64,000 bases of DNA from Lota lota (Eukaryota > Chordata > Actinopteri > Gadiformes > Lotidae). Both the position numbers and the translations under genes were made by a program. Of the stretch, positions 19,759 to 63,347 are shown in pieces. Positions within the stretch are counted from its first letter, which is position 1, and every line of letters starts with the position of its first letter. Location of the stretch: positions 835,001 to 899,000 of the forward strand of contig JACYXH010000091.1 in the NCBI GenBank assembly GCA_026745465.1, in the 5' to 3' direction. A model generated the notes under the pieces. It did no database searches. It worked only from the letters and a program-made list of their open reading frames with translations, and was not told the origin of the DNA.

Positions 19759-19912
<154 letters not shown>

Positions 19913-34717: not shown

Positions 34718-37700
34718 GTAATGCTGTATTTAAGAATGATCATGCTTTGCCAGCTTAACATGTTGTATTTTCTGAGAATGTTGCAGTGGTAATAACTACA
34801 AGGCTTCCTGTCCAGTGTCTATACTGTTTGATTATATAGTCTGCTGGCTTGAGTGTAGATGAGTTGGCCTGTCCCCAGCTTGTTATACAGCACGTGATGT
34901 GTGAGAGAATCATGGAGTTCATAAACATTGTGACAGCACTGTTGGACATCCAATATCTTGAGCAGTGGAACTTGTACAGGTTTAATTTTCCATAGCGTAC
35001 CACTTTTTTTTCAGATGATAGTTTTGAGCCCAGCGATATACAAAGGTATCTATGCTTCTGAACACTCAATATATTTGAGTGTTCGGCCATTTGATCCAGG
35101 CAGCAACCTGGGTCATGGATGCAGAGAGTCTGGATGCAGCTTCACTTCTGTTCCTGCCATGTACATAAATGACAGTGTCACCGGCATAGCTGCACCCCCA
35201 CACCTGTGCAGACCACTTATGTAAAGGCTGAGCAAGATGGGTCCAAGTACGATCTCTGAAGGATACCGGTTGGGGAGTTCCGCTCTGGATCTTACCTACA
35301 GCACCTTGAACAGCACCTTTGACAGCGCACGGAATTCTCACCTTTGCGTGGCTGGTTGTGGATGCTGATGGCCTGGGTCTGGTACTGGCCGTCCTCTCCC
35401 TGCACGCAGATGAGGTGGGAGTCAGCCGCTTCATTGAAGCATGCCCCCATGGCCAGGACGTGGTCGTTAGACTTGTTTAACACCTTCATCAGCTGAGAAG
35501 AGACCAGACGGGGTGCAGGGAAAAGGTTGGCCAGGATGGTTGATGGGAAATACCAAATCTTAAACATCTAACCTAAAGATTATAATTTTTTTGCCCGGGA
35601 CCACATTTTAAGGTATGAATATTTTCGTGAAATGTTTGCTCACATCTTCTATTTCCGTGCATTTGCTTCCACACACATCACGTTAACCCAATCAATGCTC
35701 CAGTGATTAGCAGATGTTCACTGGTGGCTGCGAATCATTCAGCAACCATCAATCAGCATTCGTATTTACAAGACCTCAATGTGACCTTGCAACCCTTTTA
35801 GATTAATTGTTTTTAATAAAAAATGTGTCAATCAGATTTCCATCGCTTCGATCCAAGTTTGGGAAACCCTGCTATAACCATAAGCGGTAAAGTGCATTAG
35901 CAGTAGTGATGTGGCTGCAGTGCTCCCTACTTCATTATGGCTGTCCTTAGGTATCTTGATGCAGGTCTTCTGGGCCTCCAGGTCCACAGTGAGGCCCGGC
36001 ACCACCGGTAGACTGTAGCGGTAGTTCCTGAAATCCTATCAGCAGAAATAGGAATGTAATGGGGATGTACCACTAAATCAATAAATCCATTGCATCTCGT
36101 TACACTTGCTGATTACTCTGATGGACAGCGTCCACTTACCACCAGCAGCCTCATTATGGTGTGTCCCGTCTCGCCGAACAACGCCTTCCTGAAGCGCACG
36201 TTGTACAGAGGGCAGGGGTAAACTGGGACCACAAGGAGAGAAGGACAGATGTACAGAGGGCAGGGGTAAACTGGAACCACAAGGAGAGAAGGACAGATGT
36301 ACAGAGGGCAGGGGCAAACTGAGACCACCAGGAGAGAAGGACAGATGTACAGAGGGCAGGGGTAAACTGGGACCACAAGGAGAGAAGGACAGATGTACAG
36401 AGGGCAGGGGCAAACTGAGACCACCAGGAGAGAAGGACAGATGTACAGAGGGCAGGGGTAAACTGGGACCACAAGGAGAGAAGGACAGATGTACAGAGGG
36501 CAGGGGTAAACTGGGACCACAAGGAGAGAAGGACAGATGTACAGAGGGCAGGGGCAAACTGAGACCACCAGGAGAGAAGGACAGATGTACAGAGGGCAGG
36601 GGTAAACTGAGACCACCAGGAGAGAAGGACAGATATACAGAGGGCAGGGGCAAACTGAGGCCACCAGGAGAGAAGGACAGATGTACAGAGGGCAGGGGTA
36701 AACTGGGACCACAAGGAGAGAAGGACAGATGTACAGAGGGCAGGGGCAAACTGAGACCACCAGGAGAGAAGGACAGATGTACAGAGGGCAGGGGTAAACT
36801 GAGACCACCAGGAGAGAAGGACAGATGTACAGAGGGCAGGGGTAAACTGGGACCACAAGGAGAGAAGGACAGATGTACAGAGGGCAGGGGCAAACTGGGA
36901 CCACCAGGAGAGAAGGACAGATGTACAGAGGGCAGGGGCAAACTGGGACCACCAGGAGAGAAGGACAGATGTACAGAGGGCAGGGGCAAACTGAGGCCAC
37001 CAGGAGATGGGGACAGAGACGAACTTTGTTCTGCTGAATCTTTCTCCCTCATTTTCCTGCGTTCTCACACATTTTCTTTTGTAATAAGCAACCAGTGTTT
37101 GTATATTGTATTTCACACACTAACACGCAAACACACACACACACACACACACACAATCAGCAGTAATGCTTCCTCACGCTGATGTAATCTGAAACAGCGA
37201 TTACAAGTGTTACGTGACAACCAATCAAATCAAAGACCCCCCCCCCCCACACACACACACAGAGGGCTGGCTCACATCGGTACTCTGCGCCCAGTCGGAG
37301 CATGAGGCGCAGGGGGAAGGCTTTGGCCCAGGCCAGCTCCGCTCTGTGGACAAGCAAGGCAAAGAGGTAGGGCTGGTTGGGCAGAGGCAGGCCTTGCAGC
37401 GACTGCAGGGTGGAGCACACGTACAGGAAGCCTGCGTGCTCCTCGCTGCCCAGGAAGCTGCCGCGGAAGAGCGAGAGGGATAGGTGCTTCACCACCTTCC
37501 CTGGGGACAACAGTGGATAGGGAGGGAGAGGGCGTGAGAGTGTTGTTGGTGCGATTGGTTCAGTTGATGTTTGGGAATGAATTCATGAAACCTTTAGATG
37601 GGTTAGATGATCAGACACAGAAGAATACATAGAATATGGTAAATGGAAGCAAAAGAACCTTGCACATTGCAGTTTTGATAGTGGTTGTGCGTCTCACCTG

Positions 37701-39277: not shown

Positions 39278-40811
39278 CACAAAGACACATACATAAACAC
39301 ACACCCAACGGTGATATTAGGTTGAGCACGGAGAGCTATTTATGATACACACATACATACAAACATACACACACACACAGAGACACACACACATACACAC
39401 ACACAAGCACAGTGCTGCAGGGTACATCATGAAAGCTGCTTAGCACTCACTCTTCACAAGGGCGGAGTGACAGGAAATGCAAACCCTTCCCTCCTTCCCG
39501 TCCAGGTGTGTCAGTCTGAACTTCAGGTTGGAGCAAACGGCACAGAAGACCTCCACAGACAGACACACACACACACACACACACACACAGATTAACACAC
39601 TGTTTTCGCACACTACTTCACATGTTCTCTCTCAAAAAGATAGTGGACACCTTGGACATAAATACCCTTCGACAACAATCTACGACGGTCTCGTCATGCA
39701 CTTACCTTCCCACAGGCGCGGCAGTGGTGCCTCCTCTTGGTGAAGGTGAACTTCACCTGGCACTTCATGCAGACCTGGGCCTGGGCGTCAGGGACCCACA
39801 TGGGAGCCACCTCTCCGAGCACGGCCCCCCGCTCCCTGGACAGGATGCTCGCGCGCCCCAGCTGCCTCTCGTTGTCTGGGTCCAGCGGCGAGGCGGACGC
39901 CACGAGACCGGCAGCGCCATCTTTTTCTTCTTCATCATCTTCTTCTTTTTCCTTGAATTCCTCGTCTTCTTCTTCGTGCCCCACCTCCGCCGCTCCGGCT
40001 GCATCCATGTCCGCCTCCCCTTGGTGGTGGTGGCGGTGGTGGTCGTCTTCGCGGCAGCCGGTGTCCTGTGGTTCTCGCTCGGCGTCATGGGAGTGATCGC
40101 CGTGAGCGGAGGATGAGCAGTAAGAGGAGCTGCTGTGAGTCTCTACGCCGCAGGACTGCTGCTGCTGCTGCTGGTCCAGACCGCTCTCCTCGCGCTCCTT
40201 CTCCTCCACCACAGAGTCCTCCTTGGAGGGCGGAGAGCGCAGCCCCCCGTCATTCTCCTCCTCCTCCTGTTCCTCCTCCACCTCCTCCGGCCAGCTGGCC
40301 TCGGTGGGGCTCAGGTCCACAGGGCTGTCCGGTCTTAGACATCTCTCCCCCCATGCGGAGATGGTCCTCACGGTGCAATGGCCCTCCTCCAGCTGCTGGA
40401 GGAGCCTCTGGGACTGGCTCTCCAGATGGGGGGTGACGCTCTTCTGGTGGCCGGCCTGCCGGCGCGACTCACGTGCTTTGGGTTGCGGCTTCCGGTAGTC
40501 CGCCGGCTCCTCCAGGCACCGCACGGTCGGCCCCTCGGAGGTCGGGATTCCAGAGGGCAAATGGGTTGTTATCTGCTCGTAGCTTAGCGCGGGTTTAGCG
40601 ATGTCCCCGTCTCTCAACACCAGGAGACACGGTCTGCTGAGCCAGTGGTGTTTGCTGTCCATCAGGGAGGGGGCGTCCCCTTCATCTGTTCAGAGTGGAG
40701 CACGCCGTGTTAAGAAAACCATGAGGAAGCACAAAACATTAATCATCCAAGCGCGAGGCAATGAAACCACTCCGGATCCTGTGTTAGCAGAATTAGTCGG
40801 CTCCCTCTCAT

Positions 40812-57134: not shown

Positions 57135-57247
<113 letters not shown>

Positions 57248-57498
57248 AACACACACACTAATGTACAAAATGTAGCTTTTTCGATACATATATTGTTGTT
57301 TGATGCTGAATAACTCACGCGAGAAAAGTTTGCGGTTTGCGCAAGCAACCTCGCAATAACGCAAGTAGAATAGTCGCTTCGCTTTTGGTGTGAAAGCACC
57401 ATTACGTTTAGTTACACGGCAAGTACAGGGTATGCGGGCTGTAATCTAAAGCAGTGTTAGTTTCCCCCTTGTTATGTTTAGTTACAGGCTAAGTACAC

Positions 57499-60227: not shown

Positions 60228-63347
<3,120 letters not shown>

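Follow-up and report, generated by a model that had tools for sequence, protein, structure and literature searches.

Minisatellites that run across the border between an intron and an exon have been described in amphioxus under the name of 'mirages', in the globin genes BflGb6 and BflGb9 and in Adh3 (PMC3087553). In the passages of that study which concern them, the BflGb6 mirage duplicates the 3' end of an intron together with the 5' part of an exon and exists in haplotypes with 6 and 3 units, many of the mirage repeats carry splice signals, and the edges of the clusters escape homogenisation. The Adh3 data and the globin RT-PCR given there suggest that regular splicing is undisturbed by the boundary minisatellites of amphioxus (PMC3087553, also for Adh3). 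On the donor side, the VNTR in intron 18 of human ABCA7 has a 25-bp unit that begins with the GT of the exon 18 donor; the corresponding passages report the retention of one unit in ~2% of transcripts, unaffected by VNTR length, as well as lower expression and more exon 19 skipping with a longer VNTR, the skipping rising 3.2- and 4.1-fold (5399 + 4575 versus 557 + 315 bp; 9711 versus 837 bp) (PMC5954066). Human internal tandem repeats at exon-intron boundaries also alter splicing and can give rise to new introns (PMC2812944), and splicing is likewise altered by the FAM20C boundary VNTR, a tandem repeat lying across an exon-intron border (PMC5941971). The parts consulted of two further papers (PMC3549977 and PMC4039745) contain nothing on boundary-spanning arrays.

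We describe here an array of 17 CAG|TTT acceptors (the bar marks the splice junction) in the SARA/zfyve9 gene of Lota lota, running on the minus strand from 36990 to 36222. As in BflGb6, an intron 3' end and the 5' part of the following exon make up the unit, and, as reported for the amphioxus mirages, splice signals lie within the repeats and an edge of the array stands outside homogenisation (PMC3087553). The dimensions differ, the zfyve9 array having a 48-bp unit and 16 extra copies, compared with units of 150-160 bp in BflGb6 and of 10-72 bp in Adh3; it further differs from the mirages described in those passages by its occurrence in the teleost lineage, by a CAG|TTT that is intact in every copy and by a period that keeps the frame, a matter on which those passages are silent (PMC3087553). 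The likeness to ABCA7 lies in a splice site carried inside the VNTR unit, which results in an array of similar sites beside the true one, and use of a site within the array has been observed there; unlike that of zfyve9, however, the ABCA7 VNTR is on the donor side, has a 25-bp unit and shifts the frame when one unit is retained (PMC5954066). The repeats of PMC2812944 belong to recent human paralogues in segmental duplications, unlike the array studied here, and an acceptor array like that of zfyve9 is not described in the passages on these repeats or on FAM20C (PMC5941971). No earlier report of the zfyve9 array was found in the openly licensed literature, which was mostly searched without the gene name. 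Repeats of this kind are known, although they have seldom been described, and the array is best classed with the mirages, as a minisatellite lying across a boundary; the number of its intact acceptors and its frame-keeping period set it apart. It suggests that boundary-spanning minisatellites, as described in amphioxus, occur in vertebrates beyond the human paralogues.

Anatomy of the array and its host gene

The window, that is the whole stretch of 64,000 nucleotides analysed, belongs to contig C91 of the 575-Mb assembly. On its minus strand, the frame 40689-39694 matches the FYVE zinc finger (PF01363, E 1.1e-12), and a spliced piece of the same gene matches SARA_C (PF11979, E 2.6e-49). The sole Protein Data Bank chain matched at E values up to 1 was 4bkw, named zinc finger FYVE domain-containing protein 9, a protein that we take to be human. 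When five neighbouring frames were compared with Pfam, three gave matches above the cut-off (Mob1/phocein, a rhodopsin-like receptor and a protein kinase), one gave an ELO match below its cut-off and the last had no match.

The minisatellite occupies positions 36203..37006 of the minus strand, and its 48-bp unit is composed of 27 bases of the intron 3' end followed by the first 21 exon bases. TRF delimits it at 36202-37007, with a period of 48, 16.8 copies, 95% match and 0% indels. Between 37060 and 36100, CAGTTT occurs 17 times, with the first exon bases at 36990, 36942 and so on down to 36270 and 36222, each step being 48 and the spacing free of indels across all the sites. These exact steps confirm the original prediction of 17 units of 48 bases, all with CAG|TTT and with a period divisible by three, the 17 being 16 upstream copies and the exon's own acceptor. 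Each unit had also been said to carry the first 20 bases of the exon; the exon start is indeed present, but the common stretch is of 21 bases (TTTACCCCTGCCCTCTGTACA) and is unchanged in only 8 of the 16 upstream units.

The unit at 36222 runs on into a conserved exon of the SARA_C domain (36140..36222, minus strand, 83 bases), which has its acceptor CAG|TTT at 36222 and its donor GTAAGT at 36139. On the basis of this conservation, the terminal unit of the array is the authentic boundary, in agreement with the proposal that the unit nearest to the exon is the real acceptor. The preceding exon (37276..37500, minus strand, read by eye) ends with GAEYR and a T that completes the first codon of the exon 36222-36140; its donor GTGAGC starts at 37275, and the junction of this donor with the conserved exon is in frame. 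The spliced reading across 37275/36222 aligns with 4bkw without a gap, the solved ZFYVE9 having no insertion, and the point at which one would be placed is inside a well-conserved stretch of this alignment. Both the anatomy and the arithmetic were correct in the claim that the choice of an upstream acceptor would keep the frame and place n x 16 additional residues behind GAEYR.

A second SARA-family gene of the same genome, on contig C812, shows 67 and 70% identity over two exons and has no such array. At the same junction, read by eye, GAEYR and a donor are followed by a single ordinary acceptor, TCTTTTTTTCCAG|TCTATCCTTGTCC, which gives the spliced reading FYPCPLFSVRYRK. The corresponding intron of this gene contains an unrelated 31-bp minisatellite of ~10.7 copies, located away from the acceptor (L009 5791-6122).

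Variation among the units and origin of the array

Among the 16 upstream units, 6 of the 48 positions are variable (0-based 3, 19, 37, 42, 43 and 44); the units fall into 7 distinct sequences and differ from one another, on average over all pairs, at 1.96 of 48 bases. The exon part contains two of the variable sites: its base 4 is divided equally between A and G (8 units each), the G changing Tyr to Cys, and its base 20 is a T in one of the units with G. The remaining four are in the tract, and the tract variants are linked to the exon base that follows: where position 37 is T (seven units), position 44 is always C and the following unit always starts with TTTA, whereas, where it is G (nine units), position 44 is T in seven cases and the following unit starts with TTTG in seven. 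The true acceptor at 36222 is of the first tract type (T at position 37, C at position 44, TTTA). The two linked variants alternate irregularly along the array. Comparison of the units shows a homogenised interior and a diverged left edge, the latter matching the two tract variants at 21/30 and 23/30 bases.

We propose that a short tandem duplication happened to span the intron-exon border of zfyve9 and that unequal exchange or slippage would have expanded it until there were 16 extra copies, the array also being homogenised. The irregular alternation of the variants, the small number of distinct units and their low mean difference fit such a tandem duplication with homogenisation. Every copy would bring its own pyrimidine tract and CAG|TTT; the copy that adjoins the conserved exon (36222) would most likely remain the main target of splicing, and copies with similar signals may see use at a low rate, adding n x 16 residues without a frameshift. 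As 48 is a multiple of three, the use of an upstream copy adds no frameshift, which may be why the array has been tolerated, and its frame-keeping period would spare any leakage the decay that frameshifts drive. The array is thus probably a neutral minisatellite of the mirage type, in which 36222 is the principal acceptor and some leakage, in frame, may occur. The ordinary acceptor of the second SARA-family gene, the gap-free alignment with 4bkw, the chance expectation of an open frame and the commonness of minisatellites in this genome all count in favour of this reading. By analogy, the boundary minisatellites of amphioxus, which are reported in the passages concerned not to interfere with splicing, would argue for main splicing that is undisturbed here as well (PMC3087553).

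Strength of the splice signals

Acceptors were scored with approximate vertebrate acceptor weights and were compared with 12 other acceptors of the zfyve9 gene located by eye from conserved reading frames. With these approximate weights, the 17 array acceptors score from 1.7 to 6.5 (median 4.7), within the range of the 12 others (-1.3 to 9.8, middle value about 4.2), and in this respect the interpretation of the repeat as an array of acceptors stands. In the whole gene span, 20 of 506 AGs reach the array median, and 9 of these 20 are in the array. The true acceptor scores 6.3, five upstream copies also score 6.3 and one scores 6.5; the local score of 6/16 upstream copies is thus as high as that of the true acceptor or slightly higher, which counts against the preferred reading. 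A branch-like yUnAy, TTTAC, is found only where exon base 4 is A, that is in 8/16 units, 45 nt before the next acceptor, a distance at the long end of the usual range, which likewise counts against that reading. By this approximate scoring, the stronger tract and the yUnAy are combined only in acceptors 12 (36462) and 17 (36222), and this is counted in favour of the main use of 36222. A weaker TACAT, read from the sequence and unscored, precedes the next acceptor by ~28 nt in 15/16 units, with TATAT in the remaining one.

Sites of such similarity could also act without being joined themselves. It can be envisaged that the sixteen similar sites upstream of the true acceptor sequester U2AF/U2 and thereby slow splicing or cut the output of zfyve9 according to copy number, for which a parallel is offered by the lower expression and increased exon 19 skipping that go with the length of the donor-side VNTR of ABCA7; the effects described in those passages, however, compare kilobase-scale with short alleles, whereas the zfyve9 array measures 0.8 kb, and a regulatory role of this kind appears unlikely (PMC5954066).

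It is doubtful that this one locus, with a number of interchangeable in-frame acceptors that would differ between individuals, gives rise to a ladder of SARA proteins with n x 16 additional residues in the C-terminal domain. The favoured alternative site would then be acceptor 12 (36462, minus strand), the sole upstream copy with the stronger tract variant and a yUnAy at 45 nt, the use of which adds 80 residues. A length-variable protein insertion is, as such, possible but unsupported.

The lengths of the intron and of the exon pull in opposite directions, the former favouring early copies (285 nt to acceptor 1, at 36991..37275, versus 1053 nt to the true acceptor) and the latter late ones (83 nt from 36222 versus 851 nt from acceptor 1). 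After a branch point, the first AG with a pyrimidine tract is often preferred. Under intron definition or by a choice of the first AG, an early copy could therefore win, which counts against main splicing to 36222; if acceptor 1 (36990, minus strand) or another early copy were taken constitutively, most of the array would be exon and up to 256 residues would be added to the protein. The short intron and the first-AG preference speak for such a coding VNTR, but acceptor 1 is the diverged copy of the left edge and the weakest of the 17 (1.7 versus 6.3 for 36222), the nearest yUnAy upstream of it is 95 nt off with 9 AGs between them, the exon would reach the length given above, and the insertion is absent from both 4bkw and the second SARA-family gene. 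We consider this outcome very unlikely. Heavy use of early copies in general is unlikely but not impossible, because the residues that would enter the conserved stretch are mostly hydrophobic and number up to 256.

The locus provides a clear natural experiment on the choice that the spliceosome makes among many near-identical acceptors without a frameshift penalty. The natural differences between the copies are small, consisting of a G/T change in the tract and of the branch-like TTTAC contributed by the exon's own base 4. If the upstream copies are used, they would constitute a protein insertion tunable by copy number; if they are unused, they would show how strongly position overrides the local signal.

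Open frame and selection

The absence of a stop in the exon frame across the array, as originally stated, was confirmed. All three frames of the minus strand are nevertheless open (328, 311 and 321 aa), as is one of the plus strand (329 aa), and those of the gene strand are open because the unit is poor in A. Among 100,000 shuffles of the unit, 82% were open in a named frame and 53% in all three, and the proportions were 81% and 51% among 20,000 shuffles that preserved dinucleotides. Only 6 of the 144 single changes of the consensus unit create a stop in the gene frame, so that six random changes would produce none with a probability of 0.77; six variable sites would leave all six positions of CAG|TTT untouched with a probability of 0.43. 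A period divisible by three would have a prior of about 1 in 3. The open frame, the invariance of CAG|TTT and the lack of stops are each expected by chance and provide no argument for selection, nor any against it; the openness of the array and its pattern of substitutions are those expected without it. Selection for an open frame was accordingly rejected as an inference, given that all three gene-strand frames are open and that shuffled units behave alike. The frame of the gene is not special, and its suggested maintenance, which had been taken as the main hint of function, finds no support; the alternative raised in the original prediction itself, descent from a frame-open unit without selection, is the better reading.

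A functional generator of length-variable exons, in which regulated use of upstream acceptors would lengthen the protein by n x 16 hydrophobic residues, is highly improbable: the 17 acceptors are within the score range of real ones, all in frame and open, and the period is divisible by three, but the openness is expected by chance, the variable sites (3 synonymous, 3 missense) show no significant synonymous excess (P = 0.24), the 16-residue repeat peptide, which is hydrophobic (GRAVY 1.48) and has a high content of Cys and Pro, would sit in a conserved stretch, and the second SARA-family gene is without the array.

Repeat landscape of the genome

The abundance of tandem repeats was estimated from 20 loci of 10 kb, evenly spaced rather than random on two contigs and comprising 187,500 non-N bases. 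Five arrays of at least 300 bp with a period of at least 10 were present in these 20 loci, covering 1.09% of the 187.5-kb sample. Minisatellites are common in this genome, and their overlap with some acceptors is to be expected. If the acceptors of such a genome number around 200,000, as an order of magnitude, arrays placed blindly would take in many of them, and a single instance calls for no particular explanation.

No second copy of the zfyve9 array was found in the assembly by a DNA search, which skips common words, or by a pattern search, both of which give lower bounds, and a dispersed repeat family is therefore an unsupported origin. The DNA search otherwise matched the right end of the array itself and, weakly (69%), a site on contig C611 within a purine repeat of the GAGAGA type; of the sites returned by the pattern search of the assembly, at least 10 belong to the array and one, with two mismatches, stands alone on contig C249. 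In viral contigs, no relatives of the unit pattern were found.

Elsewhere in the zfyve9 gene, (TG)n runs take the place of a normal pyrimidine tract before two other inferred acceptors, at 39550 and 39240 of the minus strand, so that the gene has several acceptors bordered by simple repeats. The window also contains long microsatellites at 57136-57258, 60582-60739, 61844-62129 and 19759-19912, among which are 79 perfect GA units, 38 perfect AGAA units and ~143 imperfect TG units, which point to a repeat-rich genome. At 644-811 of the window, a 55-bp unit is repeated in tandem about three times.
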